The translations under genes and the position numbers were made by a program. From a virus, in IMG/VR virus record IMGVR_UViG_3300009502_002949, positions 1 to 34,714 of that record: a stretch of DNA of 34,714 bases. One strand, 5' to 3'. Below, one piece after another: positions 2,857 through 30,833 of the stretch. Each line of letters starts with the position of its first letter. Position 1 is the first letter of the stretch. Under the pieces are notes generated by a model. It did no database searches and was not told the DNA's origin. It saw only the letters and a program-made list of their open reading frames with translations.

Positions 2857-3410
2857 TGGATACGACTTTGCCGCCGGTCCACCCGGAAGCCGAAAAGGGC
2901 GTTAGCCCACTGTCCCCACAGAAAAAGGCAACCGGGCCCGGCGGTCTACTCTCAAAGAAACACCGCGTAACGGATCTTCGGATCTTGGCGCGGCTGAAGC
3001 AAAATCGGGGCCGTGTTTTGTGGGACATGGCGACAGCGGTTTTTATGTTCACGATCCTTAGCGTACCGGTGGCATTTTGTGGAGAGGCGACAACTGGGCT
3101 TGCGTCTTTTTACGGGCGAGAGTGCTGCCGGTACAACCTTAATCCTTCTTTTTGTCCAACGTCAAGCGGGAGATCACTCTATGAACTTGAGAGAACGAAA
3201 CAAGATTTTGCGGCAGCCTGGAACTATCCGATGGGCGCGATCGTTAAGGTTACTAATCTCGGAAACGGAAAATCTGTCACAGTCGCAATTTTTGACCGTG
3301 GACCAAGCCGCAGACTTCACCGTGTTATCGACCTATCTAAAAGAGCTTTCAGCAAAATATCGTCTTTAGACAAGGGCGTGATCCGCGTGAGTGTTGAGAG
3401 GGTCGAATAA
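2856..3410 (+). CDS. RlpA-like double-psi beta-barrel protein with N-terminal membrane segment
   Basis: Residues 79-184 match the RlpA-like double-psi barrel: TGLASFYG (79-86), SSGRSLYE, AAAWNYPMGAIVKVTN (119-134), NGKSVTVAIFDRGP (137-150) with the conserved Asp148, then HRVIDLSKRAF and a GVIRVSVE strand. RlpA proteins bind or cleave septal peptidoglycan. A hydrophobic segment at 58-75 (MATAVFMFTILSVPVAF) after a basic stretch would anchor or export the protein. Cys75 is present but the preceding residues do not form a good lipobox. The ATG shares a base with the previous stop and GAGGA lies upstream. An internal ATG at 3027 would give a short signal peptide but has no clear SD. The protein is odd among recombination and replication genes. 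Confidence 0.85.
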   Translation: MDTTLPPVHPEAEKGVSPLSPQKKATGPGGLLSKKHRVTDLRILARLKQNRGRVLWDMATAVFMFTILSVPVAFCGEATTGLASFYGRECCRYNLNPSFCPTSSGRSLYELERTKQDFAAAWNYPMGAIVKVTNLGNGKSVTVAIFDRGPSRRLHRVIDLSKRAFSKISSLDKGVIRVSVERVE

Positions 3411-14738: not shown

Positions 14739-15383
14739 ATGGACAAGACAGGAGTAGCTAATCTCGCAATACGAAAAATCGGAGCTAACCGGATTTCTTC
14801 TTTTACAGATGGCTCAAGAGAATCGGATTTAATGCTTGATTTGTATGACCCTATCCGTGATGAATTTCTTGAAGCATTTCCTTGGAGTTGCGCGACAACC
14901 ACAGTTCCAGTACAAACCCTTTCCATCGTTCCATACTCAGGTGTTGAGGGATTGACTATCGCTTACGCGTTACCTAACGATTTCATAAGGCCGATTGCAG
15001 TCTCAAATATCGGAGCGACGTTCAAGTTCGAGAGCTTCAAGAGCGAGGATAATACAATGACAAGGGTTCTTCTCTCGGACATGGCGAACCTTCAGCTTAA
15101 ATATGTGTTCAGGAATGACGACCCGTCGAGTTATTCCCCGTCAATGGTTACGGCTCTCGCAACACGCCTTGGCGCGGAGATTGGCTTTAATATCGCTCAA
15201 TCGGCAAAGAAAGCGGAGATGCTTCTCAAGGAATACGAGGAAATAAGACTTCCTGACGCGAAGTCAAGAGACTCCGGAGGGACGCCAGAGACTCCCGCTC
15301 AAAGCGAATGGGAGACCGCTCGGCTCTCAGGCCGTGGGAGCATGGTAGATGTTGGAAAAATTTGGATACCGACAAATTGGTGA
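14739..15383 (+). CDS. Tail tubular protein A (T7 gp11-like)
   Basis: The 214-residue protein opens with the typical gp11-type start (NLAIRKIGANRISSFTDGSRE, then LMLDLYDPIRDEFLEAFPW) and has the middle segment YALPNDFIRPI and LQLKYVFRNDD before a helical C-terminus. This family forms the gatekeeper ring between portal and tail nozzle in T7-like tails. TAGGGGG lies before the ATG. The gene is first after the terminator, so an unseen promoter or readthrough must drive it. Confidence 0.9.
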   Translation: MDKTGVANLAIRKIGANRISSFTDGSRESDLMLDLYDPIRDEFLEAFPWSCATTTVPVQTLSIVPYSGVEGLTIAYALPNDFIRPIAVSNIGATFKFESFKSEDNTMTRVLLSDMANLQLKYVFRNDDPSSYSPSMVTALATRLGAEIGFNIAQSAKKAEMLLKEYEEIRLPDAKSRDSGGTPETPAQSEWETARLSGRGSMVDVGKIWIPTNW

Positions 15384-15385
15384 GC

Positions 15386-15691
15386 ATGGACAAATGCGCT
15401 CGATGTGGTCAATGCTGTATCGTGTTCGCAAAAACCGTTAATCTGAACGGTGAGAATGTTGACTTGTATTCTCATTGCGATCATTTGAAAGCGGAGCATG
15501 GGGGAAGGAGCGGCGGGCGTACCTATTGCGACATTTATCCGTACCGGATAGGAGCGGAAATATCTAAGGGACTTCGTTGCATGAAAAGAGAAGATTCAAA
15601 AGTAGATTATCCGAATTGCCCGTATAACTCTGGAAAGCCAATTCATCCCGCGTTTGATCCTGCCAAGAGGTTTTCATGCCAAAAGCCTTAA
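15386..15691 (+). CDS. YkgJ-like cysteine-cluster protein
   Basis: The start at ATG 15386 (or GTG 15380) gives 101 residues and begins MDKCARCGQCC, the CxxCxxCC signature of the YkgJ group of putative zinc or iron-chelating proteins. Further cysteines occur at YSHCDHL, RTYCDIYPYR, GLRCMKRE, YPNCPYN and FSCQKP, so the metal cluster seems complete. An earlier in-frame ATG at 15308 lies inside the tail tube A gene and would add an unrelated N-terminus. The last 16 bases overlap tail tube B. Its place between two tail-tube genes is unusual, and its role in the phage is unknown. Confidence 0.8.
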   Translation: MDKCARCGQCCIVFAKTVNLNGENVDLYSHCDHLKAEHGGRSGGRTYCDIYPYRIGAEISKGLRCMKREDSKVDYPNCPYNSGKPIHPAFDPAKRFSCQKP

Positions 15692-18135
15692 CGCCTCATT
15701 GTAATTTTAATGCCGGCGAATGGTCTCCCCTCGCAAAAGGACGGTTCGATCTCGTTCAGTATCCTAACGCGCTCGGGTGCGCGGAGAATTTCCTGCTCCA
15801 CCAGATCGGCGGGGCTATGTTCGCGCCTGGGACGGTGTACGCAGGATCAGTAAAAGACCCGACCAAGAAAACCAAGATTATGAAATTCTCTTTTTCCTCG
15901 ACGCAGAATTACATTGTCGAGGTTGGTTATCATTACTTCCGATTTTGGGCGAATAACGGTCAGGTGTTGAATGGCGGTAATCCTGTAGAGATCGTCACTC
16001 CTTACGACTCGGCCGATGTGTTTCAGATTCACAGGGCGCAGGACGAGGACACGATGTATATTACCTCGCCGCTCAATACCTACAAGCCATATAAGCTCGT
16101 TAGACTCGCCTCAAATTCATTTTCCATGACTCCGGTTTCGTTCATACGAGGCCCGTTCCTTGATGACAACATTACGAAACTAACGATTACCCCATCGTCC
16201 GCTACTGGTAACGTCAATCTTGTTGTAACTGTCCCTGCTTGGGGCGCGGGGATAGCGTATGTCCCAGGTCCCGATATGCCTGATTATGTGACGAATGGAG
16301 GAAGCACTTACAAATGTCTCGTCGCAAATGTCGGAGGTTCGACCTTTGCCGCGGACCTTGCGTCAGGGTATTGGGTGCTTGCCGCAACTGTCCCCGTATT
16401 CCAAGCCGGTCATGTTGGAAGCCTTTGGAAAATCAATACCGGTGTTGTTAAGATTCTTACCGTGTCAGATGGACTTCATGCGACCGCAGCGGTTCAGTCA
16501 GAGCCGGAGGGCGTCGCGGGAACACTCACGAGCGCAAGCGCGTTTACGCTATGGGCAGAAGCCGCGTTTTCCGATGTGCGCGGGTGGCCGGCGACTTGTC
16601 AATTCCATGAGCAGAGGCTTTATTATGCGAATACGACTTATCAGCCGAAAAGCGGTTGGGGTTCAGTCATTAATGCACCGGACAATTTTAAGGTAGATGC
16701 AAACGTAGATTCGGCGGCGGTGGATTTTACGGTATCCGATGTTCAGGGAAATGCGATAAGGTGGATGGCCTCCTGCCCTTCATCCCTTCAAGCAGGGACA
16801 AGTGGAGGGACGTTCACAATCCAATCCGGTACTGCCGGAGCGACGATTTCCGCTAAGAACATCAATGTCAATAACGATACGAATTATCCTACCGCCGCCA
16901 TCCAACCCGAGAAGATTTCAAGCTATCTCTATTATCTCCAAGCGAATCTCTTTCAGGTGCGCGAGCTCTATTACGATTATCTTAAAAACCGGCAACTCGC
17001 CGCGGATATGTGCATCTTTGCGGATCACATCTTGAGAGACGGAGGCGGGGCGGTTGAGATGGCACATCAACAAAGCCCGAATGACAGGATATGGGTACTT
17101 CGCGCAGACGGTCAAATCGCGGTGCTTGTCCGGAACGCGGAGCAACAGGTCATGGGATGGTCGCGCCTTACGGCAGGAGCATCGAGCGGTGGGGAAGGAC
17201 TCTTTGAATCCCTCGCGATCCTACAGGTCGACGGTGCGGACGACCAGATATGGGTGATTGTGAACAGGGTTATTAACGGGAGCGTATGCCGGTTCGTCGA
17301 GTATTTCTCGGCTGAGACGTTCGTAAATCAATGGGAGCCTATCCGTCTTAGTTGCGCTTTGGCTCTAAACACGCCTATAACAATAACTGGATTCACAAAC
17401 GCAAACCCTGTAGTCGTCACGGCGTCTAGTCATGGATTCTCGAATGGAGACCAGATCAAGATTGATCTTGTGAGCGTCGTTGGCGTAGGACCGAACGGAT
17501 TTCCAAAAGTCGTTTCTTCTCCTCTCAATGGAAACATTTACATCGTAGCCGGAGTTACGACCCATACGTTCCAGTTGAAAGATGAGCTCGGGAACACTAT
17601 CGATGGGACATCTTTCGGAACTTATTCAAGCGGTGGGAAAGTTTGGAAAATGGTGTCAACGATATCCGGATTCGACCATTTAATCGGAGAGACGATATCA
17701 GTTCAGACCGACGGAGCAATTCCGGCCGCGCAACAGAGGTTCCTAGTCGATGGTTCAGGGCAGATTACGCTTCCTAACAAATCCGCGCAGATTATCGGAG
17801 GGCTTCCGTATAGGGGGAAACTACAGCTTTTGAGAATCACAGAAGGCGGGCAGGGAGTCATGCGAAGGATTTACGAGGCGTATCTCCGTGTTGATCGGAC
17901 TCTCGGACTGAAGATCGGGAAGAAAGACGATCCAAAGTTTTTAAAACCGATGGTTATTCAAACTCCAAAGAACCCTCCGCTCGGCCATCCAGTTCCTCTT
18001 TACACAGGAGATATCCCAATGCCGATTGATGGGGGATGGGCGACGGACGATGAAATTGTAATAGTTCAGGATCAGCCGCTTCCTGCCATGCTTTTATGCG
18101 TTCTCTTAAAATCTGAAACCGAAACCAAGGACTAA
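15676..18135 (+). CDS. Tail tubular protein B (T7 gp12-like nozzle) with binding modules
   Basis: The 819-residue protein starts with the typical gp12-type sequence (NFNAGEWSPLAKGRFDLVQY, then NALGCAENFLLHQIGGA) and forms the nozzle of the short tail. Two inserted modules are visible. Residues about 188-236 (AYVPGPDMPDYVTNGGSTYKC to GYW) resemble small carbohydrate-binding modules. Residues about 566-657 (ITGFTNANPVVVTASSHGFS and following, ending GGKVW) resemble the FCCH-like beta domain seen in some phage tail proteins. The C-terminal part is strand-rich. AGAGG precedes the ATG, which lies inside the Cys-cluster gene. Confidence 0.92.
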   Translation: MPKALTPHCNFNAGEWSPLAKGRFDLVQYPNALGCAENFLLHQIGGAMFAPGTVYAGSVKDPTKKTKIMKFSFSSTQNYIVEVGYHYFRFWANNGQVLNGGNPVEIVTPYDSADVFQIHRAQDEDTMYITSPLNTYKPYKLVRLASNSFSMTPVSFIRGPFLDDNITKLTITPSSATGNVNLVVTVPAWGAGIAYVPGPDMPDYVTNGGSTYKCLVANVGGSTFAADLASGYWVLAATVPVFQAGHVGSLWKINTGVVKILTVSDGLHATAAVQSEPEGVAGTLTSASAFTLWAEAAFSDVRGWPATCQFHEQRLYYANTTYQPKSGWGSVINAPDNFKVDANVDSAAVDFTVSDVQGNAIRWMASCPSSLQAGTSGGTFTIQSGTAGATISAKNINVNNDTNYPTAAIQPEKISSYLYYLQANLFQVRELYYDYLKNRQLAADMCIFADHILRDGGGAVEMAHQQSPNDRIWVLRADGQIAVLVRNAEQQVMGWSRLTAGASSGGEGLFESLAILQVDGADDQIWVIVNRVINGSVCRFVEYFSAETFVNQWEPIRLSCALALNTPITITGFTNANPVVVTASSHGFSNGDQIKIDLVSVVGVGPNGFPKVVSSPLNGNIYIVAGVTTHTFQLKDELGNTIDGTSFGTYSSGGKVWKMVSTISGFDHLIGETISVQTDGAIPAAQQRFLVDGSGQITLPNKSAQIIGGLPYRGKLQLLRITEGGQGVMRRIYEAYLRVDRTLGLKIGKKDDPKFLKPMVIQTPKNPPLGHPVPLYTGDIPMPIDGGWATDDEIVIVQDQPLPAMLLCVLLKSETETKD

Positions 18136-18139
18136 AACT

Positions 18140-18670
18140 ATGAGCGGAGCGACGGGGGCATCTTTAGACTCAATGGGTGGACCGATGGCACAATCGACTC
18201 TCGGAAATTCTGCCGGTGGGGGTGGAGGTAGCTTTGCCGCTATGGGTGGAATCGTCGGCGGGATAATGTCCGCATGGGGAGATTACACGCAAGGCGTTCA
18301 GCAGAACAAAGCCTATCAATACAATGCCGATCTCGCTATGCAGAAAGCGCAGGAGACGAGAGCGGCAGAAGCGTTGCACCAAACGCAGATGGAACGGAAG
18401 AAACAGTCAGACACGGGGCATCAGTTCGCGGAATATGCAGGGCGTGGCGTCAAGACGAACACCGGTTCTCCGGTCGATGTGATGGTCGATAGTATCTCTC
18501 AATGGAATCTTGATATGTCAATCTCATCCTATAACGCGGAGGTGTCGGCTCGCGGGCTTGAGAATCAGGCGGCTATTGACCGATGGACGGGTAAACAAAT
18601 TAAGAGAGAGCAGACAACAAAAGCTGTCATGGGTTTATTTTCAACGATTGTTGGCGCGTCGACGAATTAA
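18140..18670 (+). CDS. Internal virion protein (T7 gp14-like position)
   Basis: The 176-residue protein has a Gly/Ser/Met-rich, hydrophobic N-terminus (AAMGGIVGGIMSAWGDY) that could cross a membrane, followed by a helix with an Asn/Gln/Ala-rich heptad pattern (NKAYQYNADLAMQKAQETRA) and a C-terminal domain with AEYAGRGVKTNTGSPVDVM. This layout and its place after tail tube B match the small ejected core proteins of T7-like phages, which form part of the channel across the host envelope. Confidence 0.8.
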   Translation: MSGATGASLDSMGGPMAQSTLGNSAGGGGGSFAAMGGIVGGIMSAWGDYTQGVQQNKAYQYNADLAMQKAQETRAAEALHQTQMERKKQSDTGHQFAEYAGRGVKTNTGSPVDVMVDSISQWNLDMSISSYNAEVSARGLENQAAIDRWTGKQIKREQTTKAVMGLFSTIVGASTN

Positions 18671-18681
18671 TAGGGGGAATC

Positions 18682-20151
18682 ATGGCGAGAATTACTGAGC
18701 ACGAATCAAGCGGGAGAATGACGAATGAAATTCCGCAACAACCGATTGACCCGCAAGTAGCGTCTACCGGTGGCCGTATTCTCTCAGACATAGGAAAAGG
18801 GATACAGGGAGCATCAGAGCAACTGTTAAAAGTTCAGAAAGTAGCGGAAACGACTAGGGCGCAGAACGAGCACGAAAAAGCGCTTATGACTGTTGAATCA
18901 GACTTCGCAAAAGAAGATATTTCGAGCATGACCCCCGAACAGATCGCGGCCGTTAAGTCAAAATATTCTACGCGCATTGAAGAGGCCAGGTCTAAATCAG
19001 CGGATCATATTTCAATGCCAAGGTGGAAGAATCAATGGAATATGGAGCAGCAGCACAATTCAAATGTTACACAGGCGAATCTTGACTCAATGCTTTTAAA
19101 AAAATATGTCTCGAACGCAAAGGCTCAACTGGATACCTATGAAGCCATTCATCAACAGAATTATATTAAAACAACGAACGTCGGAGAGCTAACAAACGAG
19201 ATCCATCAGCTTGACACGAATATTGACGCTCAGGTACACGCAGGATTTCTAACAACAGAAGAAGGCGTGAAGCAAAAGGTTGAGAAAAAGCAGAAGTGGG
19301 ATCAGGCCCACGCTACGCATTACGCGATCACGGCTCCGGATCAGTTCTTGGATATGGTGAAGAACGGGTTTTATGAAGGGGTGAATATTGAGACGCTTGA
19401 TAAGGCGACACAGACCGCAAACAGAATGATCGAGCGCAGAGAAAAGACCGCGAAAGCTGCCGAAAAACTCGGACAGAAGAAAACATACGAGTCGTTTGCT
19501 ATGCAAGTCCACGACCGGACCGCACAGCTTCCTCAGATCGAGGAAGCGTTTACCTCGAAGAAAATTACTCCGGTGCAGTTCGGGAAGCTCCGGGATCAGT
19601 TCGGAGCGTCAAAACTCACGCACAAGAGTGACCGGGCCGCGTATATGGAAATTTTGGAATCAATGGCCGACGACGCGCAGAACAGCCAGGACGTACACGA
19701 TAAGATCCTGTCAGCGAGATCGAGCGGGAAGTTATCGGTCCAGGACGCGCAACACCTGGCGCATCTTCATTTCTTGAAGGATGAAGAAGTCGGGACAGTT
19801 GCGGACGATTATTCAGATCTGGATAAGATTCTTTCCGAGGACGGAGCACGCGAGAAAGCATCTTCTGAAAAGAAAGGCGTTCTTCGTTCCATTATGGATA
19901 TGGTTAAGGGAAATCCTAAAGGCCAGGAGATTGTCAGCTCCGCGATTCAGGAACACGCGAAAGATCCCAAAGCAAAGGTCCAGGATCTCCCTGCCGTTAC
20001 AAAGCAAAAACTCGCTCAAGATTTTTTGACTCGCCATCCGGAAGTAAAAAACTATCCAAAAGAAGGCGTTGTTAAAGTGGATAGATACGGGAATCACATT
20101 ACATTCTACCCGGACGGATCTTACGAGGTTAAAAGCAAGGGGAACAAGTAA
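18682..20151 (+). CDS. Internal virion/ejection protein (T7 gp15-like position)
   Basis: The 489-residue protein is almost wholly helical and charged, with long coiled-coil stretches from about residues 40 to 270 (Gln, Lys and Glu heptads), and a C-terminal turn with VDRYGNHITFYPDGSYEV. It fits the middle ejection protein of T7-like phages by size, composition and position between gp14-like and giant ejection genes. AGGGGG lies before ATG 18682; another in-frame ATG at 18718 has a weaker site. The identification rests on context more than on sequence motifs. Confidence 0.75.
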   Translation: MARITEHESSGRMTNEIPQQPIDPQVASTGGRILSDIGKGIQGASEQLLKVQKVAETTRAQNEHEKALMTVESDFAKEDISSMTPEQIAAVKSKYSTRIEEARSKSADHISMPRWKNQWNMEQQHNSNVTQANLDSMLLKKYVSNAKAQLDTYEAIHQQNYIKTTNVGELTNEIHQLDTNIDAQVHAGFLTTEEGVKQKVEKKQKWDQAHATHYAITAPDQFLDMVKNGFYEGVNIETLDKATQTANRMIERREKTAKAAEKLGQKKTYESFAMQVHDRTAQLPQIEEAFTSKKITPVQFGKLRDQFGASKLTHKSDRAAYMEILESMADDAQNSQDVHDKILSARSSGKLSVQDAQHLAHLHFLKDEEVGTVADDYSDLDKILSEDGAREKASSEKKGVLRSIMDMVKGNPKGQEIVSSAIQEHAKDPKAKVQDLPAVTKQKLAQDFLTRHPEVKNYPKEGVVKVDRYGNHITFYPDGSYEVKSKGNK

Positions 20152-23100
20152 TGCCCGAAATTGATCTGGAGTCCGCAGCAGCCGCCCCGGAGCTCAAGGA
20201 AGGAACCGAGGGACAAAAGACTTTATCACAAGCCCCGGACGTTGAATCAGCGATTGAACCGGAACACCTTTCCATTGGTCCTTCAAAATCCTATGACGTA
20301 TGGGGAAGTATCAAAGGAGCTTTGAAAGCATCTGTTATTGGGCCAATGGGCGTAGGAAAGCGCGAAGCGGAGACGGATCTTAAATCCGGTGCTCGAAAGA
20401 TGATCCAGGGGGGCCCGGAGGAAGCAAACGCAAAATCCCAAAATATCTATGCCATTCAGCAAGAGTTAAAAAGGCAGCGAGACTTACCGAGCATTTACGG
20501 TGAATCAAAGACGATGCGTGAGAGGTTTGGGGATGATTACGTTAAGGAGAGATCAAAAGCGATAGCGGAATCAACAGGATTGTCCTTGCATGACGTTGAG
20601 GCGCATTTTGAGGAATTTGCAAGAAACCCGAAGATTACAGGTATCCGTCCGGATCATCCAAGCAACAAAGAATATCTTGGCGCATTGATGCAGATAGGCG
20701 TCGCCACGGGCGCGGTTATTGATCCCATCGGAACCGCAGTAGGCTTTCTTGCGTTCTCCGCTTTGGATCACCTTATCCCTACCGAAAAATGGATACCCTC
20801 AGACGCAAGCAATACAGCAAGGGGAGCCATTGAGCTTGCGGACTTCATCGTTAAGGGTGAGATCGCCGGTGGATTTATGCACGGCCTTCCTGGAGGCCGC
20901 GCCGCGTCCGATGCAACGACGTACCGCTATTCGAGAGCGAAAGGCATCAAAGAAGGAGACATGATGCCAAGACCCTCAATTTTTGAACCGGATCGTTTGA
21001 AACAATGGGGCAGGCAAAACATCTTAGAAAAATTCTCGTACTGGAAGATGAAAGCTCATGGTTTACCGACATCGTTTCAGATTACTCCGGAGCACCTTGC
21101 GAAGTTTGAAACGGCGTTTAAAGAAGATTTTGGCGCGAAGATGGAGGAGCTACTAGGAGTAAAGCCCGAGACAATCGAGGCCGCAAAAAAGACAGGGGCC
21201 AGTATCGAGATCCCGGCGGAGACGATCGTAAAAGCCGCGCTTAAAGACGAACCGAAGAAACCAAGCAAGAGCAAGAAGCCAAGATCACCGAAAACGCTTT
21301 ATCAGTTTCCGGAAAGAACGATCACTGAAGCGGACGCTAAAACACTTCTTCCAGGCTACGAAGAAGGCCAAGACCCCGTACACTACGGGATCAAGCAAAT
21401 GCGGGCTGAGATCGAGGAAGGAACGGCAGGCCGTAAATTCGTCAATCAACCGGACCAGGCCGGAACTATCGAGGATACCGTTGCCGGCTATGAAGAGTCT
21501 ACTTTCCCGGAGTATTTTAAAAATAAAGGATACACGAAGAAAGAATCTCTTAAAGTGATCGACGTTTTCCTTGAAAACAAGCCGCTTACGGAGAAACAGA
21601 AAAGCCTTCTCACTGGACTTTTTGAGAGTAAAATAGAGCATCTTAAAACGGAGGCAGAACGCCATGCCGAGTATGAGCGAAGAACAAAAGAAGAAATTGA
21701 AGGAAGCGGTGTCCCGGTCGACGAAATCGAAAAAGCGGCTTCAGATCTTCGAGGGAATGAAGAAGGATCTTCAGGGGAGAAAGACGCAAAGCTAAGAAGT
21801 GCAATCGACGGGATCGAAAGTCTCGTCGATGAATCCGGGAATCTTACGAGAGGAACGGATTATATCCGTGAGCAATTCCTCCAGGGCCACGACCAGGAAA
21901 ACCTCGAAGCATTAAAGATATGGGCCGATAAGAACAAAAACCCTCAGATCCGCCGCATTGTCGTTGATGAAGTCTCCGCGCAGCTCCGCTCCGATTACGA
22001 GAAAGTAAAAGAGATCCTTGCCCCCTCAGAATCCCCGAAGCTCGAACTTGACCCGGAGAAACCGTCCGGAGAGATCAAGATCGGAGACGAGAATCCTGCC
22101 AAAGAAACGCCCCAAGAAGAACAAAAGAACGTCGCGGCCGCTCTTGAAAAAACAAATCCACCATACGAAATATATTCAAACAAGGGGATCGGATACGTTG
22201 TAACAGGGACGCCAAAAATTGATCCCGTTGAAAAATTCGGATTACAGCCTGGGGATAAGGTTATCCAGATCGGAGTGCCGGCAAAAAGCGGGAAAGAGAC
22301 TTTGAACTCCCGAATTGATTATTGGGATGCTCCGGGGATCACTTATGTCGGAATCTCAAAAGCCGAGTTTCTTGCAAACGAAGGCTATGCCCTTATGTTT
22401 GAAACTCAAACGGTTAATGGTGAAAAGGTTCATATTGCCTATCCTTTCCGTGAAATGAAAGGGAATGACCCGGAACTGCAAACTGCATGGAACTCCAAAG
22501 CCGGTCCAAGCACAAGGATCTACAGGGCGGAGTTTAAAAAGGCCAAAATGTCCGAAGGCGAATTTAACTTATGGGCGGCTAAAGAGAGAATCAAGGAATT
22601 GAAAAAGATGGGAGCCGACAAGCTAAACCCAAAGACTACCGCTTATGGGGAAGCATGGGAAAGAGCTCAATCGGATCTTATCGAATCCGATGCAGCGCGG
22701 ACACAAGAGATCAAGAACAGTATTGCCGAAGGTGAAATGATCTTGAAGGACGGGAAGATTAACGGCAGGAAAATGTCGAAGGAAGAACTCGAAGCAGTAA
22801 AAAGAACAGTCGACAACGCTAAAGCAAAACTGCCGTCTTACAAAAAAGCGGAGTTTGGAAAGCCGCGCACCCTCAAGGAACAGACAACGGCCATGACGGA
22901 CCTCGAACGCGCCGCCTACGAAGGGAAGCAAGGAAAGCTATTTGGTAACGAAAAAGGATCTGTCGCTATTGACGCTATCCCCGGAGTGCGTGAGATCGTC
23001 GCTTCCGTTGAGACAGCCGGGAAGATGGCGAAGGGAATACAGGAGACGTTTGCCGCGCCTACCTTGGACAAATACTCAAGAATGACAGCGGAGACGTTGA

Positions 23101-25976
23101 GGGAACAGATTGCAAAGTCAGTCCGGGCTTATGACGTGATGGAGGTATCCCTTGCAAGAGCTAGAAACATGTTTAACAAGATGGACAAGGCAAAGCTCGT
23201 TTATTTCATGGACGCGATCGAGACAGGCGCAAAACAGCCTACTCCGGAGCTCCAGACGATAGCGGACACGATCCGAAACGAACTGGACCTTAGGCGCGAG
23301 AAGATCCAGAGGCTAGGGACCGGGAAGCTCCAGACGTTCATTGATAATTATTTCCCGCATATCTGGAAAGACCCCAAGAAAGCGCAGGACGTATTTCTAC
23401 AGATGGGATCTAAGCGTCCCTTTGAAGGCGGAAAGTCTTTCCTCAAGAAACGCACCATCGAATCAATCAAAGACGGTATCGCAGCCGGCCTGGAGCCGGT
23501 GTCTTACAACCCCGTTGATCTTGTGCTGCTCAAGGCTAGGGAAATGGACAAGTATATCCTGGCTCACGAGACGCTAAACATTATGAAGTCGGAAGGATTG
23601 GCGAAGTTTGTCGCTGTCGGCGCGGAACGACCTGAGGCATGGAAGAAGGTCGACGACAATATTTCGACGGTGTACGGATCTCCTGAGTACAAGGTCAAGG
23701 AATACCAGGATGAAGAAATGATGGACGCGCTCCAGGCGGTTTTAGACTCTCTTGGAATAAAGCACGAGAGGCGTCTCAAAATTGGGGGAAAAGCTCTTGG
23801 ATATTCTCAACCAGGCCCCATAGATCCAAAGACGGGACGCCCTGGCCCTGGGACGGTTACAACGAGAACAGCGACACCTCCAAGCACCGTAGCTCATGAA
23901 GGAGGGCATCAGTTGGATGAAATGTTTGGATTGCTTGACAAGTTTCTTGGAGGAAAAAGGCCAAAGGCTGATTTTATTCTTGATCGGATGGCCGGGAAGG
24001 CCAAGCGCGAGGGACGGCTGACCGACGTTCAAAAACTTGAGATGCAAAAAACGATTAATAAGGAGCTTCGGGACCTCGCGGATCTCAAGAAGGTCGGAGC
24101 TTATGGACGTAAAGGCGTCGAGAAGATGGCGACGATGCTTGAGGCTATGATCCAGGCTCCAGACAAATTTAAGAAAGTCGCGCCTAACGTCTACAAAATG
24201 TATAGAGAATTTCTACAGTCGGACCCGCGCCTTAAACCGTTGCTTGATATTAAGCATGGTATTCCGAAAAAAGTAATGACCGGCACCGGAAGCGTCGGCG
24301 GCATGGTGATAAACGGATACTGGTACATGCCAGAGAACGCCGCGACGGTGATAAACAATTACCTTTCTCCGGGGCTCCGCGGAAATACGTTCTTTGATTT
24401 GTACCGGAACGCCGGGAACACCTTGAACCAGTTTCAGCTTTCCGGTCTGTTCCATCTTGGGTTTACCTCTCTGGACGCTTGCATATCCCGCGTCGCTCTT
24501 GGATTTGAGAAAGTCGGATCAGGTGAGCTTAAAGGAGTTGGTGACGTTGTTGCGGGGATCTCAGGAGTGCCGGCGATCACGAACCTTATCAAAGGAGACA
24601 AGCTCCTTAATGCGTGGTACGGAAAACCTACGGACGCAAAGACGGCTCTCATAGCGGAATCAATGGTAATGGCCGGAGGACGGGCAAGGATGGACTCTTT
24701 CTATGCTACGACCGCGTTTAAGAATATGCAGGCAGCGTTTAAAGAGGGGAAGGTCGTTAAAGGAATTATGACCGCGCCACTTGCCGCGCTTGAAGCAATC
24801 ACGCAGCCAATCCTCTCAGAGATCGTCCCGCGTCAAAAACTCGGGGTGTTCTTTGACCTGGCTCAGTCAGAGATCGAGAGAAATCCGAATATGGGCCATG
24901 CGGAATTAAGAAAAAAGGTACAGGACGTTTGGGATAGCGTTGATAACCGGATGGGTCAACTCGTCTACGATAATCTCTTCTGGCACAAGACAACAAAGGA
25001 TCTTCTCATGGTATCCGTCCGATCAGTGGGATGGAACCTTGGAACCTTTCGGGAGCTTGGAGGGGGGGCCATAGATACCCTTAAATTCGTTAAGGACGTT
25101 GCCTCCGGTAAGAAAGCGAAGTTTACGCACAAGATGGCCTATACAATGGCGTTGCCGGTCGTGACAGGGCTCTACGGTGCCATTTATAACTACCTCCACA
25201 CCGGAGAAGCCCCGCAGGATCTAAAAGATTATTTCTTCCCCAGGAACGGAAAAATTGATAAGAACGGAAAGGAGCAGCGCGTCTCTCTTCCGTCTTACAT
25301 GAAGGACATTTACCACTATTCGACCGATCCGTGGAAAACAGTTACGAACAAGGTAGCCCCTCAAAACAGCATGATCGCTCAAATGCTTGATAACAAAGAT
25401 TTCTACGGTACGGAGATCCGAAACGAGGACGACCCGATAATGCAGCAGATCATGGACGAGATGAAATTTGTCGGAACAAGCGCAATTCCATTTACGGCAA
25501 GAAACGTCAATAAAACAGGATGGAGCCCGGAGCAGCTTATCGGGGTAATGCCATCCCCTCAGTCCGTGAATATGACAAAAGCGGAACAAGCGGCGCAGAA
25601 GTTCGCGTCAGCAAAAGTACCGGTAGGATCACGCACCAAAGAAAACTCGAAACACGCGCAGGACAAGGCTGAGATCCTAGCGAAGTTCATGCAGAACAAA
25701 GACTACGATGCCGTTTATAAGGCCGCAGACGATGGAACGATCACGAACCGAGAAGCGGAGCAGCTTATCAAGGAATCGGAAATGAGTTACCTAGAGAGAG
25801 TCGCGCCGCACCTTACGGTCGAGGAAGCAATCAAGGTCTACAAAAAAGCAAACGAGAAAGAGAAAGAAATTCTACGGGACATTATCGAAAAGAAATATTC
25901 AAATAAGATGAAGAAAGAAATGACGCCGGAACAGCAGGCGAGGATTGAAAAACTTTACGAGGAGAATTTTCAATAG
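20151..25976 (+). CDS. Giant internal virion/polyvalent protein with zinc-metallopeptidase motif
   Basis: At 1941 residues this is the largest gene and takes the place of T7 gp16, the largest ejected protein. The N-terminal 250 residues include a hydrophobic segment (GAVIDPIGTAVGFLAFSAL, about 190-208). Residues 330-760 are charged and low complexity, with polyvalent-type blocks. Residues 1245-1340 carry HEGGH (His1249, Glu1250, His1253) followed by QLDEMFG, and a later helix MATMLEAMIQAPDKFKKVAP with Glu1331, the layout of gluzincin peptidases. From about 1390 on, GLRGNTFFDLYRNAGNTLN and FHLGFTSLDACISRVALG begin a long helical region typical of giant phage ejection proteins. The TAATG overlap with the previous gene shows coupling. 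Confidence 0.85.
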   Translation: MPEIDLESAAAAPELKEGTEGQKTLSQAPDVESAIEPEHLSIGPSKSYDVWGSIKGALKASVIGPMGVGKREAETDLKSGARKMIQGGPEEANAKSQNIYAIQQELKRQRDLPSIYGESKTMRERFGDDYVKERSKAIAESTGLSLHDVEAHFEEFARNPKITGIRPDHPSNKEYLGALMQIGVATGAVIDPIGTAVGFLAFSALDHLIPTEKWIPSDASNTARGAIELADFIVKGEIAGGFMHGLPGGRAASDATTYRYSRAKGIKEGDMMPRPSIFEPDRLKQWGRQNILEKFSYWKMKAHGLPTSFQITPEHLAKFETAFKEDFGAKMEELLGVKPETIEAAKKTGASIEIPAETIVKAALKDEPKKPSKSKKPRSPKTLYQFPERTITEADAKTLLPGYEEGQDPVHYGIKQMRAEIEEGTAGRKFVNQPDQAGTIEDTVAGYEESTFPEYFKNKGYTKKESLKVIDVFLENKPLTEKQKSLLTGLFESKIEHLKTEAERHAEYERRTKEEIEGSGVPVDEIEKAASDLRGNEEGSSGEKDAKLRSAIDGIESLVDESGNLTRGTDYIREQFLQGHDQENLEALKIWADKNKNPQIRRIVVDEVSAQLRSDYEKVKEILAPSESPKLELDPEKPSGEIKIGDENPAKETPQEEQKNVAAALEKTNPPYEIYSNKGIGYVVTGTPKIDPVEKFGLQPGDKVIQIGVPAKSGKETLNSRIDYWDAPGITYVGISKAEFLANEGYALMFETQTVNGEKVHIAYPFREMKGNDPELQTAWNSKAGPSTRIYRAEFKKAKMSEGEFNLWAAKERIKELKKMGADKLNPKTTAYGEAWERAQSDLIESDAARTQEIKNSIAEGEMILKDGKINGRKMSKEELEAVKRTVDNAKAKLPSYKKAEFGKPRTLKEQTTAMTDLERAAYEGKQGKLFGNEKGSVAIDAIPGVREIVASVETAGKMAKGIQETFAAPTLDKYSRMTAETLREQIAKSVRAYDVMEVSLARARNMFNKMDKAKLVYFMDAIETGAKQPTPELQTIADTIRNELDLRREKIQRLGTGKLQTFIDNYFPHIWKDPKKAQDVFLQMGSKRPFEGGKSFLKKRTIESIKDGIAAGLEPVSYNPVDLVLLKAREMDKYILAHETLNIMKSEGLAKFVAVGAERPEAWKKVDDNISTVYGSPEYKVKEYQDEEMMDALQAVLDSLGIKHERRLKIGGKALGYSQPGPIDPKTGRPGPGTVTTRTATPPSTVAHEGGHQLDEMFGLLDKFLGGKRPKADFILDRMAGKAKREGRLTDVQKLEMQKTINKELRDLADLKKVGAYGRKGVEKMATMLEAMIQAPDKFKKVAPNVYKMYREFLQSDPRLKPLLDIKHGIPKKVMTGTGSVGGMVINGYWYMPENAATVINNYLSPGLRGNTFFDLYRNAGNTLNQFQLSGLFHLGFTSLDACISRVALGFEKVGSGELKGVGDVVAGISGVPAITNLIKGDKLLNAWYGKPTDAKTALIAESMVMAGGRARMDSFYATTAFKNMQAAFKEGKVVKGIMTAPLAALEAITQPILSEIVPRQKLGVFFDLAQSEIERNPNMGHAELRKKVQDVWDSVDNRMGQLVYDNLFWHKTTKDLLMVSVRSVGWNLGTFRELGGGAIDTLKFVKDVASGKKAKFTHKMAYTMALPVVTGLYGAIYNYLHTGEAPQDLKDYFFPRNGKIDKNGKEQRVSLPSYMKDIYHYSTDPWKTVTNKVAPQNSMIAQMLDNKDFYGTEIRNEDDPIMQQIMDEMKFVGTSAIPFTARNVNKTGWSPEQLIGVMPSPQSVNMTKAEQAAQKFASAKVPVGSRTKENSKHAQDKAEILAKFMQNKDYDAVYKAADDGTITNREAEQLIKESEMSYLERVAPHLTVEEAIKVYKKANEKEKEILRDIIEKKYSNKMKKEMTPEQQARIEKLYEENFQ

Positions 25977-26212
25977 TCCGGAGGAGGCGCGGAATCGACA
26001 AAGTTTTTTAGCCACTCCGGAGCGAAGTCGGAACGAAGAAATAAAACGAGGACGATAGGGAAAATGATCGCGCAAGCGCAAAGAAGCAACGTATGGCGAG
26101 AATCGAATTTATGCTCAGGAAGTTTCTTCCAGGGTCGGAAGATCCAGACTAGGGCGGTAAGCGATCCTGTCAAAACGACGAAGAACCACGCTCTAAGAAT
26201 GGATCTAAACAT
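25970..26212 (-). CDS. Two-helix small membrane protein on the opposite strand
   Basis: This is the only minus-strand gene I accept. The 80-residue product has two clear membrane helices, AWFFVVLTGSLTALVWIF (8-25) and LLLCACAIIFPIVLVLFL (about 42-59), a basic loop between them (RPWKKLPEHKFDSRH) and an acidic, Pro-rich tail. It fills the gap between two + genes almost exactly and overlaps the giant gene by seven bases. Reading upstream, GGAG lies 14 bases from the ATG, which is far, and a TATAAT is on the same strand at 26225-26220. It could be a holin-like, antiholin or envelope-acting moron protein. Confidence 0.6.
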   Translation of the reverse strand: MFRSILRAWFFVVLTGSLTALVWIFRPWKKLPEHKFDSRHTLLLCACAIIFPIVLVLFLRSDFAPEWLKNFVDSAPPPDY

Positions 26213-26241: not shown

Positions 26242-27501
26242 GTGGGTAAGTCTTTTTTGGTGATATGTTCGGGCCTCTATGTTGAGCTTGCGAACGCTTT
26301 ATCGGAGGGCGGGAAAAACAAGGTCTATTATTTAACGGTAAACTCTTCCCCGTTTCCGAGGTATGTAGAGTACGCTCCGGGGCACCAGTTTGAATTTCTT
26401 GAGAAGGTGAGGCTTATTGATGTTGCGAAGTACGCGGCCCTAGCAGACGGGATCGTGACTTTCGACACAGGCACGAACGGGCTTATAACGCTTCTCAAAA
26501 AGATGTATCCTGAAAAGTGCGTATTCGGGGCCGGGGTCGGGGAGAAACTTGAGACTGACCGGATCGCGTTTAAGAGGGTTCTTGAAGCAGTGGATCTCCG
26601 GGTTATTCCTTTCGAGGTGATTAAAGGATACGACTCTCTTATAAAATACCTCAAAGCTAATCCCAAGAAGGTCGTAAAGGTGGACGCCAATTTCAGAGGG
26701 GATTTTGAGACTCTCTGTATCCCGGACTACAACTCCGTTAAACAAGTGCTTCACGACCGGCGCCCTAACTTCGGGATCTACTCGGAGGAGATAGAGTTTA
26801 TCGTCGAGGATATGGTCGAGTGCGTATCAGAGTCGGGCTATGATGGCTTCTACGCGAACGGACTGTACCTCCCGTTTTCTTATGGCGTGGAATGGGAAAA
26901 AAATACTTATTTGGGTCGCGTCGCGAAAGCGGAAGAAGATGTACCGGAGGTCCTTATGGACACGCTAGACGGTATCCGTCCTATCCTTGAGAAGATGGAT
27001 TATCGCGGGGCGTTGTCTACTGAGGAGCGAATCGTCTCAGAGAAAGAACATTATTTTATTGATCCATGCTGCCGGTGCCCGCTTCCGTTAGGGGTGCTAT
27101 ATTCCAAGTACATAAAGAACTGGACGGAGTTCGTGTATCAGATCGGGAAGGGAGATCCGGTCCCGGTGGAGTGCGATTTTAAGTACGTCGGGGCTTACGC
27201 TTTAAGAACCTCGAACGCGAAAGATTATTTTACTCTTGTGAATTTCGAGAAAGGGAAGCGCGACGATTTCCGGTTTATGATGGCCTGTCAGAACAAAGAC
27301 GGGGAGTATTACGGCGTCAAAGGTCAGGAGTACATGATCGTTTCCGTCGCGGCCGGAGGTACTCCGAAGGAAGTTGTCGAGAAGTTGAAAAAGAGCGCCG
27401 ACGATGTAAACGCTTTCGGACTTGAAACGGACGCGATCAAAGGAATTGACGGTATTTTAGAGAAAATCGAAAATGCTAAGGCGGTGGGCTTGGATTTTTG
27501 A
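26242..27501 (+). CDS. ATP-grasp-like enzyme in the tail region
   Basis: The 419-residue product starts with GTG (GGGGGG about six bases upstream). Its order of motifs fits ATP-grasp ligases such as GAR synthetase: an N-terminal Rossmann-like part (FLVICSGLYVELANAL, then ALADGIVTFDTG), KLETDRIAFKRVLEAVDL (102-119), a nucleotide-binding VVKVDANFRGDFETL (144-158), EEIEFIVEDMVE (182-193), GVEWEKN (215-221) and a metal/ATP region YRGALSTEERI to HYFIDPCCRCPLPLG (254-284). Family members join an acid to an amine using ATP; the substrate cannot be read. It is not a known part of T7-like tails, so it may be a late-expressed cargo enzyme or modify a virion part. Confidence 0.7.
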   Translation: MGKSFLVICSGLYVELANALSEGGKNKVYYLTVNSSPFPRYVEYAPGHQFEFLEKVRLIDVAKYAALADGIVTFDTGTNGLITLLKKMYPEKCVFGAGVGEKLETDRIAFKRVLEAVDLRVIPFEVIKGYDSLIKYLKANPKKVVKVDANFRGDFETLCIPDYNSVKQVLHDRRPNFGIYSEEIEFIVEDMVECVSESGYDGFYANGLYLPFSYGVEWEKNTYLGRVAKAEEDVPEVLMDTLDGIRPILEKMDYRGALSTEERIVSEKEHYFIDPCCRCPLPLGVLYSKYIKNWTEFVYQIGKGDPVPVECDFKYVGAYALRTSNAKDYFTLVNFEKGKRDDFRFMMACQNKDGEYYGVKGQEYMIVSVAAGGTPKEVVEKLKKSADDVNAFGLETDAIKGIDGILEKIENAKAVGLDF

Positions 27502-27581: not shown

Positions 27582-28343
27582 ATGACTGTCTCAACAAATT
27601 CAAACACGGTTGTTTATACAGGGGATGGCCTCAGTTCAGCGTTTTCTTTCCAGTTTCCGGTCTATCTTCAGACGGATTTGATCGTTTCGGTCTACAGGAT
27701 ATCTACAGGCGTGTTGACGCAACTCACGATTTCAACGAATTACACCGTTTCTCTTACTAAGATTTCTGGAAAATCAACTTATTTGGGGACAGTTACTTTG
27801 CTTGGAGCCTACGCCGCGCTTTCAAGCGATTACAAGATTTTTATTCAGAGAGTAGTTCCGATCTCTCAGCTTATTTCTCTACAAGATAATAGCCAGACTC
27901 CGGCCGCGACATACGAAGAGGGATATGACAGAGCGGTAATGATCGCGCAACAACTCTATGAGGAGATAAGCCGCGCGGTAATATTACCAATCGGAGAAAA
28001 TTCCATAACGCCGACGGAGCTTCTTGAGGGCATAACCGTCGCTGTCTCTGTATGCCAAGCCGCTCAGGTTAGCGCCGCCGCTTCTGCCGCTTCTGCCGCT
28101 GCTTCAGCGGCCCTTGCGGGAGGTTCTTACGTCACAACCTTCACAAACGCCTCTCTTTCTACGGGAGTCCTCACGGTCACTCATAATCTCAACTCCACGA
28201 ATGTCGCTTGCTCGATTCTTGACAACACAGGAGCGATGATAATTCCTGACTCTGTGATCGTGACGGGAGTGAACACGCTAACCGTTTCCCTATTGTCCTT
28301 CGGCACGATCGCGGGAACGTGGTCAGTTCGGGTCGCCAAATGA
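27582..28343 (+). CDS. Tail fibre protein with T7-type N-terminal anchor
   Basis: The 253-residue protein begins with the anchor domain of short-tailed phage fibres (VVYTGDGLSSAFSFQFPVYL, then LIVSVYRISTG, YKIFIQRVVPISQLISLQDN and a helix EEGYDRAVMIAQQLYEEISRA), which attaches to the tail. An Ala/Ser-rich linker (AAQVSAAASAASAAASAALA, about 163-182) follows, then a small beta domain (LTVTHNLNSTNVACSILD to WSVRVAK). It is short for a whole fibre, so adhesion may rest on the next genes. AAAAGGAG precedes the ATG, and its stop overlaps the next gene. Confidence 0.87.
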   Translation: MTVSTNSNTVVYTGDGLSSAFSFQFPVYLQTDLIVSVYRISTGVLTQLTISTNYTVSLTKISGKSTYLGTVTLLGAYAALSSDYKIFIQRVVPISQLISLQDNSQTPAATYEEGYDRAVMIAQQLYEEISRAVILPIGENSITPTELLEGITVAVSVCQAAQVSAAASAASAAASAALAGGSYVTTFTNASLSTGVLTVTHNLNSTNVACSILDNTGAMIIPDSVIVTGVNTLTVSLLSFGTIAGTWSVRVAK

Positions 28344-28891
28344 AGATCGGCCCACTAACAGTCCTCGGCTCCATCAAGGGCGATACATGGGAGAGGATTT
28401 ATGATTATACGGTGGCGGGTTCCGCAGTTACCTCCCTCACCATCAGCGGCCTCAACGGTGACGTAGACGAGGAATACATTTTAGAGAGCAAGGTCGTGAA
28501 TGGGTATAACGGAATTGCTTATACTTTTTTTAGACCCAACAATGATGTGGGAACGAATTATGGATATCAATACGTTGATGGAAATAATACTTCCGCAACT
28601 GCGGGACGGGCAACAAATGACCAAGTGTGCCATATAGGTTACAACACTTCATTAAACAATATATCTCAAGCCTCATGTAAATTATTTTCCAAGTCTGGAT
28701 TTGTGCGAACGGTAATTTCGGACTTTTGTTGGGATGTTGTTGGGACAACCGTTGGGTATTCACGGCTATGGGCTAACGTGTGGAACAACACCGCCGACAA
28801 CATCACTTCGATTGTGATTGCGGCAAGTCAGGCGGGTGGGATTGGCGTGGGTAGTTCCTTCCAACTTTACAGAAAGTCGAGGCGGTCATGA
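28340..28891 (+). CDS. Fibre/adsorption protein, one copy of a repeated domain
   Basis: ATGA overlaps the fibre stop. The 183-residue product is one copy of a beta-rich domain of about 164 residues, here from WERIYDYTVAGSAVTS to GSSFQLYR, with internal landmarks NYGYQYVDG and WNNTADNITSI. The same domain occurs twice in the next gene. Such domains sit at the ends of phage fibres and probably touch the host surface. An upstream in-frame GTG (28319) would add seven residues inside the fibre gene and is less likely. The exact family is not known to me. Confidence 0.8.
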   Translation: MKIGPLTVLGSIKGDTWERIYDYTVAGSAVTSLTISGLNGDVDEEYILESKVVNGYNGIAYTFFRPNNDVGTNYGYQYVDGNNTSATAGRATNDQVCHIGYNTSLNNISQASCKLFSKSGFVRTVISDFCWDVVGTTVGYSRLWANVWNNTADNITSIVIAASQAGGIGVGSSFQLYRKSRRS

Positions 28892-29961
28892 AAACAGGAA
28901 GCCTTGAAGGATTCGTAGACCGAACTTGGCAAATTGTGCATGATAGCGGAGAACTCGCCGCCTCCGTGACTTCGTACACGATCAGCGGTCTTGACGGTGA
29001 CACCGATGTGAAGTATCGGCTTATCTCAAGGGTGGTGAGTAACAATGCGGGGGGATTAAATCTTAATTTTAGATTTAATGGAGATTCAGGTGCTAACTAC
29101 GGATATCAGTACGTCGATGGCTCTAGTGCTTCTGTTACGGCTAATAGAGCAACGAATGATACCGCAGTTAGTTTTGGATATTCTTCTGCTATTGGGAATG
29201 TAAATTTAATTGACAGTTTAATCCACGCAAAATCTGGAACAGTAAGAACCGTTGTAACAAAAAGTGCCATGAACATTAACGGAACTTCTGTCGGTTACTC
29301 AAGATTATTTGGTAACTCTTGGAATAATACCGCAGACAACATTACTTCAATAACTCTTTGGAGCGATTTCGGCATCGGCTCCCGCTTCATCCTCCTAAAA
29401 GAAGTCCACGTTCCAAGCGGTCTAAGAACTGGCGAGCTTGATATTCGTGGAACTTTAAAAGGAGCGTGGCAGGAGGTGTATCGTCACACCGTGGCGGGGA
29501 GTGCTGAGACTTCCATCACCGTATCTGGCCTCTTGGGAAACACGAAAGACCAGATTCTTAGGGTGAGGGTCAGATGGGTTAACGCTAACAATTCCGATGA
29601 AGGATTTTATATCCGCTTGAATGGTGACGGAGGAACGAACTGCGGGTATCAACTTGTTTATGGTCAAAATGCAAGCGCACTAGCCGCAAGAGGAACTCTT
29701 ACTTCGATGTACGCAGGGTCAGGCGTTGCGCTTAATAACATCAACCATACCGAAATGCTTCTTTATTTGAAATCGGGATTCGTGAGAACTGGAATTTCTG
29801 AAGTCATAAACGGGATTTCTGGAACGACAATAATCAATGCGATGTTGGCGGGTTCGTCTTGGAACAATACCGCAGACGAAATAACGCACATCGACATCTT
29901 GAGTAACCACACGGGAGCTATCGGAATCGGTTCAGAGTTTGTCATTGAAAGATTAAACCTT
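28388..29961 (+). repeat. Three copies of a fibre domain over two genes
   Basis: Copies lie at about 28388-28879, 28927-29404 and 29467-29961. All three start with a Trp, share (T/S)ISGL or VSGL, a (N/C)YGYQ-like centre, SG-x-VRT, SWNNTAD or WNNTAD near the end, and a GIG-S-F close. They differ widely at the protein and DNA level, so the copies are old or have been exchanged with other phages. Confidence 0.85.
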
Positions 29962-29964
29962 TAA
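28888..29964 (+). CDS. Fibre/adsorption protein, two copies of a repeated domain
   Basis: The 358-residue product holds two tandem copies of the domain seen in the previous gene, joined around residues 172-190 (LLKEVHVPSGLRTGELDIRG). Copy one has NYGYQYVDGSSAS and SWNNTADNITSI; copy two has GYQLVYGQNAS and SWNNTADEITHI. Several Asn/Ser/Gly turns are typical of host-binding tips. ATGA couples it to the previous gene. Part of copy one (about 29040-29350) is visibly AT-richer than its surroundings, which suggests a recombined segment. Likely receptor-binding or fibre extension. Confidence 0.8.
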   Translation: MKTGSLEGFVDRTWQIVHDSGELAASVTSYTISGLDGDTDVKYRLISRVVSNNAGGLNLNFRFNGDSGANYGYQYVDGSSASVTANRATNDTAVSFGYSSAIGNVNLIDSLIHAKSGTVRTVVTKSAMNINGTSVGYSRLFGNSWNNTADNITSITLWSDFGIGSRFILLKEVHVPSGLRTGELDIRGTLKGAWQEVYRHTVAGSAETSITVSGLLGNTKDQILRVRVRWVNANNSDEGFYIRLNGDGGTNCGYQLVYGQNASALAARGTLTSMYAGSGVALNNINHTEMLLYLKSGFVRTGISEVINGISGTTIINAMLAGSSWNNTADEITHIDILSNHTGAIGIGSEFVIERLNL

Positions 29965-29976
29965 AGGAGAAAAACT

Positions 29977-30291
29977 ATGCAATTAAACGAATGTCTTTGT
30001 GATTGGCAAGAACAACCGAATCAGATTGGAACTGTTAAAGGCTACACGCTCGTAACGGAGTGTGAACCTTGTAAAGCAAGGCGTGAGCAAGCCAACGCTG
30101 ATAAGGCCGCGGCTGATGCAGAAGCCTTGAAGGTTAAGGAAGTTGAGGACATGATCGAGGCGAAGAAACGGGAGATTGCGGTTGCGGCATTGCAGGACGA
30201 CGGACATCTTGACCATGATTGCAAGATCACAACATTAGGGAGAGAACTTCTAACGGGAATTTCAACAAAACAAAAAGGGGAAACACTATGA
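29977..30291 (+). CDS. Small coiled-coil protein with paired cysteines
   Basis: The 104-residue product starts with CLCDW and later has CEPCK, a possible zinc site, then a long Ala/Lys/Glu coiled coil (about 40-70) and a polar C-terminus. AAAGGAG precedes the ATG. It lies after the fibre genes, where chaperones for fibre folding are often encoded, but there is no sequence match to a known chaperone. Its stop overlaps the next gene (ATGA). Confidence 0.7.
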   Translation: MQLNECLCDWQEQPNQIGTVKGYTLVTECEPCKARREQANADKAAADAEALKVKEVEDMIEAKKREIAVAALQDDGHLDHDCKITTLGRELLTGISTKQKGETL

Positions 30292-30833
30292 AAAAGGTAA
30301 TCTCGCTTTTACTGGCTCTGCTTCTGATCTCAACGTCCGCGTTTGCTACTGCTGTTTCCTGCACCCGCACAGAGTACGGGTACACATGCACCGGCGGGAC
30401 CACGGCCGGCCTAGTGGTTGCCGATACATGGCAGACGTCAACGGCGTACACCGTAGGGCAGAAAGTGACGAACGGAGGTACAGTTTATAAATGCAAGGTC
30501 GCGCATACCTCGGGTACGTTCTCGACGGATAACACGGCGGGGAAATGGACGACCGGAGCGACAGCGATCCTATGGGTCACGATGATGAACCTTTCTCCCG
30601 TTGGCGCCGCGACGGATACGGCTACATTTACGAGCGCGTCCGGAAACGTCCATGCAGGGGTTCTGAATCAGTACGAGCCGAATATCCAGTTCCCGAGCGG
30701 GTCTCCGAATAATCCTTCCTCCGTGATCCAGGGAACGCCGTTTTCTAATCTAAAGGTGTCTATGACCGCGGCGACGGACGTTTTGGACGTCTATATCGCC
30801 GGTGACAATTTCAGCGGACCGTATTCAATCTAA
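30288..30833 (+). CDS. Exported protein with carbohydrate-binding-like module
   Basis: I start at 30288, which overlaps the previous stop and follows AAAGGGG; an upstream in-frame ATG (30219) would bury the signal. The 181-residue product has a Sec signal peptide (MKKVISLLLALLLISTSAFA, cleavage near 20). Residues about 48-90 (STAYTVGQKVTNGGTVYKC to GKW) resemble small carbohydrate-binding modules and the segment of tail tube B at 188-236. The C-terminal 90 residues are beta-rich. A secreted copy of a tail binding module is unusual. Confidence 0.75.
   Translation: MKKVISLLLALLLISTSAFATAVSCTRTEYGYTCTGGTTAGLVVADTWQTSTAYTVGQKVTNGGTVYKCKVAHTSGTFSTDNTAGKWTTGATAILWVTMMNLSPVGAATDTATFTSASGNVHAGVLNQYEPNIQFPSGSPNNPSSVIQGTPFSNLKVSMTAATDVLDVYIAGDNFSGPYSI

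Follow-up and report, generated by a model that had tools for sequence, protein, structure and literature searches.

The prophage late region and the ORF at 26242–27501

The DNA analysed here (hereafter the window, meaning the whole stretch of 34,714 nucleotides) corresponds to the minus strand of contig C27 of a draft genome of 50 contigs and 2.36 Mb. Since this contig runs on past the right end of the window into host-like genes (radical-SAM-like proteins, as judged by eye), the window looks like an integrated prophage of an uncultured bacterium; an assembly join is possible. The bacterium most likely belongs to the phylum Candidatus Omnitrophota, as a protein from another genome of its phylum has 100% identity to one of Omnitrophota. 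The late region encodes, in this order, a portal-type head-tail adaptor, a major head protein, a tail-tube-A-type protein (14739–15383), an 819-aa tail protein B of the T7 tail-tube-B type (15676–18135, plus strand; phrog_376, 1.8e-148), a 176-aa internal virion protein (18140–18670, plus strand; phrog_418, 9e-23), a 489-aa protein that is gp15-like by position (18682–20151, plus strand), a giant protein of 1941 aa in the position of a gp16-like ejection protein (20151–25976, plus strand), the ORF under study and a 253-aa protein of the tail-fibre N-terminal type (27582–28343, plus strand; phrog_1640, 1.5e-20). No PHROGs or Pfam match was obtained for the giant, and its putative role in ejection is assigned from its position. 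The first-pass annotation had described a T7-like tail region with ejection and fibre genes on either side of the ORF, and this description agrees with the PHROGs matches to T7-type and fibre families, the ejection label being positional.

The ORF itself (26242–27501, plus strand) starts with GTG and encodes 419 aa. The only stop in its frame is at the end, whereas 200 shuffled versions of this DNA contained 22.9 stops on average, and its GC content by codon position (0.54/0.33/0.59) is akin to that of the adjacent phage genes; the open frame and the coding composition bear out that the ORF is a real gene. It is the next sizeable plus-strand gene after the 1941-aa giant, from which it is separated by 265 nt containing a 61-aa plus-strand ORF. 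Most of this gap is also occupied by an 80-aa minus-strand ORF with hydrophobic stretches (25970–26212), for which no Pfam match was found.

Some other features of the window were recorded. Residues 1249–1253 of the giant (23895–23909) read HEGGH, which we take to be a zinc-metalloprotease-type motif; no Pfam domain was found in the giant. The giant of the related prophage L243 has HEVGH, and those of L242 and L244 lack HExxH. Adjacent proteins encoded at 28319–29964 share a repeated domain, the 190-aa one matching both halves of the 358-aa one with 44–46% identity. A carbohydrate-binding module (CBM_5_12, Pfam E 1.5e-7) is encoded at 30219–30833, in a protein that also matches tail protein B of L243 (57% over 51 aa). 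In the early region, a protein with the DPBB_1 'lytic transglycolase' domain is encoded at 2856–3410 (Pfam E 1.1e-11).

Homology, predicted fold and active site

When the window protein was used alone, no credible match was obtained in Pfam (0 families, GARS_A and GARS_C thus included), PHROGs or NCBIfam, the purD equivalog among the latter. A phmmer search of the PDB returned a single match (E 0.5), and tblastn-type searches with the single sequence gave nothing useful in 50,697 phage records, IMG/VR and the genome contigs. The initial lead came from 145 related genomes, in which two weak matches were found beyond the own genome. The protein matching at E 4.4e-4 contains Pfam GARS_A and GARS_C, and the one matching at E 9.6e-4 is a member of the GARS-like family by profile and alignment. 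At E ≤0.05, a match was present in 17 of 384 genomes of the same phylum, a count that includes the own genome and some proteins from outside the GARS-like family.

Profiles built from the relatives were more informative. All 12 relatives in alignment A1 matched GARS_A and GARS_C (E ≤0.1; GARS_C of member 1 is under its curated cut-off), and a profile of 11 relatives retrieved GAR synthetase structures (2yw2, 2e-36; 1gso, 2.6e-22). In hhalign the window protein matched the family over residues 4–146 with a probability of 79.7% (E 1.5e-5). A profile of 71 relatives, with the window protein left out, reached it in hmmsearch with E 5.9e-11 over residues 5–306, whereas the best value among 4,288 controls (2,000 shuffles plus 2,288 reversed ORFs) was 0.56. 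The window protein has about 20% identity to its relatives. As confirming query, it confirmed 41 of 567 candidate IMG/VR stretches; L190 and L228 align with it over approximately 300 residues (21–22% identity), and the other confirmed stretches over approximately 80–90 residues. A profile of the bacterial group and one of the phage group fit the window protein about equally (22.0 and 27.0 bits, respectively, both over approximately residues 63–146). In a tree of 37 rows the window protein could not be placed, its end branch being about 10 with a long-branch warning, and no close relative of it was found in the collections searched.

The structure of the window protein was predicted with AlphaFold2 from an alignment of 45 rows (44 GARS-like relatives plus the window protein itself), which makes the model lean toward the GARS fold. 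This model had a mean pLDDT of 64.5 and a pTM of 0.62, with values under 50 at residues 152–165, 173–179 and 219–229 and low confidence at residues 312–366; a single-sequence model (pLDDT 33) was set aside. In VIA-align the five best fits were GAR synthetases, headed by 3lp8 (Z 21.8, model residues 1–371) and 2yw2 (21.5), after which came PurK (19.6) and 1gso (19.5), practically level, and then biotin carboxylase (17.4). Foldseek ranked PurK first by E-value (4.7e-13), with the GAR synthetase 2yw2 at 8.0e-12. The overall ATP-grasp fold of the window protein is thus supported by the model, and the absence of this domain, which would have spoken against the first-pass annotation, is not what was predicted. 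Because the alignment of the relatives steers the model and residues 312–366 are of low confidence, the homology claim is based mainly on the sequence profiles. On these grounds we consider it almost certain that the window protein is homologous to the GARS-like ATP-grasp family, so that its earlier assignment to the GAR synthetase-like branch of the ATP-grasp proteins holds in the profiles and in the best fits of the model, being visible with profiles only.

One reading of these matches is that the phage carries a GAR synthetase as an auxiliary purine gene. GAR synthetases head the VIA-align list and the 12 relatives scanned all match GARS_A and GARS_C, but the window protein has no purD match, and the relatives L094, L005, L190, L228 and L200 scored 69.6–121.7 bits on NCBIfam purD against a cut-off of 288, a true PurD of the same phylum reaching 529.9 bits. 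The five intact cousins tested are, by this curated cut-off, not GAR synthetases. The active-site losses described below also argue against this reading, which we regard as extremely improbable. No report of purD as a phage purine auxiliary metabolic gene was found in open-licence PMC text.

The active site was compared at eleven positions picked from the relatives, whose ATP- and metal-binding roles we presume from GAR synthetase and other ATP-grasp enzymes. All eleven are intact in 90 of 90 cellular rows and in 127 of 128 viral rows (131 viral rows, near-duplicates included, 90 of the sequences being distinct and 128 rows having letters at all eleven positions); the sole viral exception is one row with Ser for Gly in the glycine-rich loop. 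The window protein keeps two or three of the eleven, namely Lys146, Arg278 and perhaps an alignable Glu. Lys146 (26677–26679, plus strand) occupies the position of the first ATP-binding Lys of the family. Position 155 (26704–26706, plus strand) is Phe, whereas Lys stands there in every relative, viral (131 of 131) or cellular (90 of 90). At the site of the glycine-rich loop (GPSTGEMG; 26899–26943, plus strand) the conserved residues are gone and about nine are deleted, depending on the alignment. The D259 and N262 of the family are replaced by Ser and Glu (27016–27027, plus strand), and the family motif LEFTxR reads IDPCCR (27058–27075, plus strand), with Asp at the E274 position, Cys at the T276 position and R278 kept. 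Since the searches yielded no closely related protein, these losses are documented in a single sequence, and where they fall in the second half hinges on a gapped alignment.

The window protein therefore has neither an intact GARS-like active site nor the full set of phosphate-binding lysines and metal-binding acidic and Asn residues. The first-pass annotation had stated that the motifs agree with this branch; this is correct for Lys146 and Arg278 and incorrect for most of the other residues that are invariant in the family. It had also named loss of the ATP-binding Lys and acidic residues in relatives as an argument against a ligase; the relatives retain these residues. Glu189, Asp274, Glu197 and Lys220 could in principle replace the lost roles. 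The active site of the window protein is very probably non-standard or dead, and the substitutions suggest that its activity would have been lost.

Loss of these residues would also be expected in a decaying gene, a pseudogene on its way out. Against this, 419 codons have stayed open at about 20% identity to the relatives and the codon-position bias is like that of the adjacent genes, and decay is therefore a very unlikely explanation. Because the ORF is very diverged and its frame is still open, it is probably under selection.

Recurrence of the gene after long same-strand genes

Relatives of the window protein recur in other phages. One IMG/VR scan yielded 401 candidate stretches, of which 356 encode a relative, and the phage record MW202796.1 carries one that is not annotated there; among 50,697 phage records, this was the only one with a phage-group relative of more than 60% identity. 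Twelve family members gave no real match in PHROGs (best E 0.022). Because of these three facts (no PHROGs match in the twelve scanned, the unannotated gene and the sole record above 60%), standard annotation can miss the family.

The gene context was analysed in 131 viral loci (130 from IMG/VR and one phage record, several contigs being present twice), picked as the best matches to MW202796.1-like queries or profiles. ORF calling was greedy, and starts may be misplaced in the counts that follow. A complete gene lies upstream of the relative in 89 of the 131 loci, and in 83 of these 89 it lies on the same strand and encodes 500 aa or more; the commonest arrangement with the upstream gene is an overlap of 4 nt. 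In the other 42 loci the contig ends within the upstream gene (36) or there is no such gene (6), and 29 of the 36 truncated genes are still same-strand genes of 300 aa or more. The six exceptions have upstream ORFs of 75 aa (L190), 182 aa (L060, L061) or 472–492 aa (L012, L066, L067). After reduction of the ATP-grasp proteins to less than 80% identity, 12 of 13 follow a same-strand gene of at least 500 aa. Because one of these 12 is that of L228, whose long upstream gene encodes a portal (also counted among the 83), 11 of 13 fit the ejection-type pattern. The first-pass annotation had considered an ATP-grasp gene in this context unexpected; the setting instead recurs, with most relatives lying directly after a long same-strand gene.

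None of the giants tested matches an ejection-protein family, and the long genes of these loci, like the giant of the window, owe their ejection label to position. In L207, a head-closure/tail family, an acetyltransferase, a DNA-ejection family and a 316-aa protein precede a giant of 1140 aa that matches only families of unknown function, and these tail families differ from the T7-type ones of the window; the giant of L091 has no family match. A small acetyltransferase-type gene between a tail protein and the next virion or ejection gene was seen in L207 (2377–2829) and in L242 (16556–16987), and one follows the 'stabilization protein' in L004 (15870–16280); the window has no such gene there.

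The overlaps bear on the possibility that the window protein has rebuilt its active site and still works as an ATP-dependent ligase, joining an amino acid or a small amine to a virion protein (the giant or the fibre) while the particle is assembled. An overlap of a few bases with the long upstream gene, found in most intact relatives, suits co-production of an enzyme with its substrate, and the window protein still has Lys146, Arg278, a PurD-like hinge Glu189 and, at the E274 position, an Asp. On the other hand, the second Lys, the loop and D259/N262 are lost, and wherever a row of the relatives has a letter these are invariant, save for the one loop Ser. We consider an active ligase of this kind unlikely. 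The earlier idea of a ligase acting on a host metabolite, a nucleotide or a peptide tag is, for the same changes (the second Lys, the glycine-rich loop and the D259, N262, E274 and T276 positions), not the likeliest account of the window protein.

The junction was then examined from the side of the giants. A query taken from a gene-bearing phage served to gather loci in which the giant has this family's C-terminal domain, and the best 80 of 189 were inspected; two had no room after the giant, leaving 78. The ATP-grasp gene directly follows the giant in 45 of the 78 and is absent from 33, so a constant association of the gene with this domain was ruled out. In 31 of the 33 loci lacking it, the giant is followed by a member of a single fibre-like group, named by the appearance of its sequences. 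Three phages related to that of the window across head and tail genes in the same order (L242, L243 and L244) have the giant directly followed by a homologue of the window fibre gene, without an ATP-grasp gene. Since these relatives without the gene have the giant and then the fibre, the window gene sits at a giant/fibre junction, as it does elsewhere.

The C-terminal region of the window giant matched those of giants beside ATP-grasp genes weakly (E 9.7e-4, the best of 1,000 shuffles being 0.86). This reverse test, from the domain to the window giant, was preferred as more cautious than a jackhmmer run started from the C-terminal part of the window giant, which reached 51 of 106 long upstream proteins. 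The giants of the three related phages lacking the gene did not reach E 5 against the domain, a search in which a weak domain could be missed. A tblastn search of the phage collection with the L016 and window versions of the domain found nothing, and no C-terminal tag common to all giants was seen by eye.

Because the gene comes and goes at a fixed junction and lies in a prophage with host-like genes further along its contig, it may also be cargo that is injected, or a lysogeny 'moron', with an effect in the host cell (anti-defence, superinfection exclusion or a metabolic effect), and be linked to its neighbours by order only. In other phages, however, it mostly overlaps the stop codon of the gene before it, an arrangement that fits a structural operon better than a separately regulated moron, and we hold this explanation, too, to be unlikely.

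Proposed role and comparison with known systems

The reading to which we give tentative preference, at a little short of an even chance, is that the window protein is a ligase-derived accessory that has kept the fold, lost the chemistry and become a partner of the ejection/fibre module. The gene would belong to the accessory late genes of a T7-type podovirus prophage; it would have been inserted where the giant ejection-type gene meets the tail-fibre gene and is presumably expressed late with the tail operon. Its product would descend from a GAR-synthetase-like ATP-grasp ligase and retain the fold after losing the second phosphate-binding Lys, the glycine-rich loop and most metal-site residues, and most likely it would have ceased to be a ligase and act as a partner of the module, in binding, in assembly or as cargo. 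The intact cousins in other phages, judging from their sequences, are probably still ligase enzymes. A direct physical partnership with the giant or the fibre is conceivable but doubtful. Several observations count against the partner reading: in the window 265 nt separate the gene from the giant, where most relatives overlap the upstream gene by a few bases; L190 and L228, the viral relatives that align over the greatest length, do not follow an ejection-type gene; and the ejection role of the giants is read from their position.

Ejection proteins are among the least understood parts of the virion. An optional gene with a ligase fold, mostly at the junction after the giant and present across differing sets of tail proteins (the window and L207), offers a handle on them and raises the question of whether the enzyme modifies, loads or accompanies the ejection protein. 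That intact cousins occupy the same spot in many uncultured viruses hints at a so far overlooked contribution to the construction or arming of the virus particle. A more speculative and somewhat unlikely extension is that many uncultured podoviruses share an undescribed 'ligase-ejection module', in which a GARS-like enzyme is co-made with the giant and modifies it or rides with it into the cell, the window branch having become a non-catalytic virion or assembly partner.

No description of an ATP-grasp gene beside phage ejection genes was found in open-licence PMC text. The word ligase does not occur in the accessible portions of a review of ejection proteins (PMC8954989) and of a study of podovirus structural modules (PMC10386132), and the corresponding portion of a study of polyvalent proteins mentions ATP-grasp as RNA ligases only (PMC5512222).

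Among characterised proteins, GAR synthetase (PurD, TIGR00877; PDB 1gso, 2yw2 and 3lp8) has the same predicted fold as the window protein, which differs from it in having no match to the family by sequence, in lacking key active-site residues and in being encoded in a tail operon. The GARS-like paralogues of Omnitrophota, other bacteria and archaea (the L094/L110 group) are homologous to the window protein with about 18–22% identity and, unlike it, keep all 11 active-site positions (90/90). This PurD-like paralogue is widespread, with at least 538 confirmed stretches labelled as Omnitrophota, Acidobacteria, Patescibacteria, archaea and others; the one paralogue tested, L094, is far under the purD cut-off, and the one context inspected by eye, that of L003, has cell-like neighbours. 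The GARS-like phage genes of IMG/VR together with that of MW202796.1 (the L004–L093 and L191 groups) are likewise homologous, with about 15–17% identity to the window protein. They lie mostly directly after a long same-strand gene, but differ in that their catalytic positions are intact and they usually overlap the upstream stop.

ATP-grasp genes of other kinds have been described in phages. According to the available part of PMC3890496, the LUZ24-like phage UFV-P2 carries a 291-aa ATP-grasp gene with an amidoligase and an amidotransferase; this is also an ATP-grasp gene in a podovirus, but it belongs to the early module and not, as in the window, to the tail region. A figure legend for phage TC6 places a putative ATP-grasp protein beside putative amidoligases (PMC6209634, from the legend). 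In the window, Pfam scans of 19 of the 45 ORFs detected no amidoligase and no glutamine amidotransferase. Jumbo phages encode R2K ATP-grasp peptide ligases as well as ATP-grasp RNA ligases (PMC7824862), and the accessible text of that source states no link of the R2K ligases to ejection genes. The R2K ligases, as presented there, resemble the family described here in being phage ATP-grasp proteins proposed to modify proteins, and differ from the window protein in ATP-grasp family and in the type of phage that carries them.
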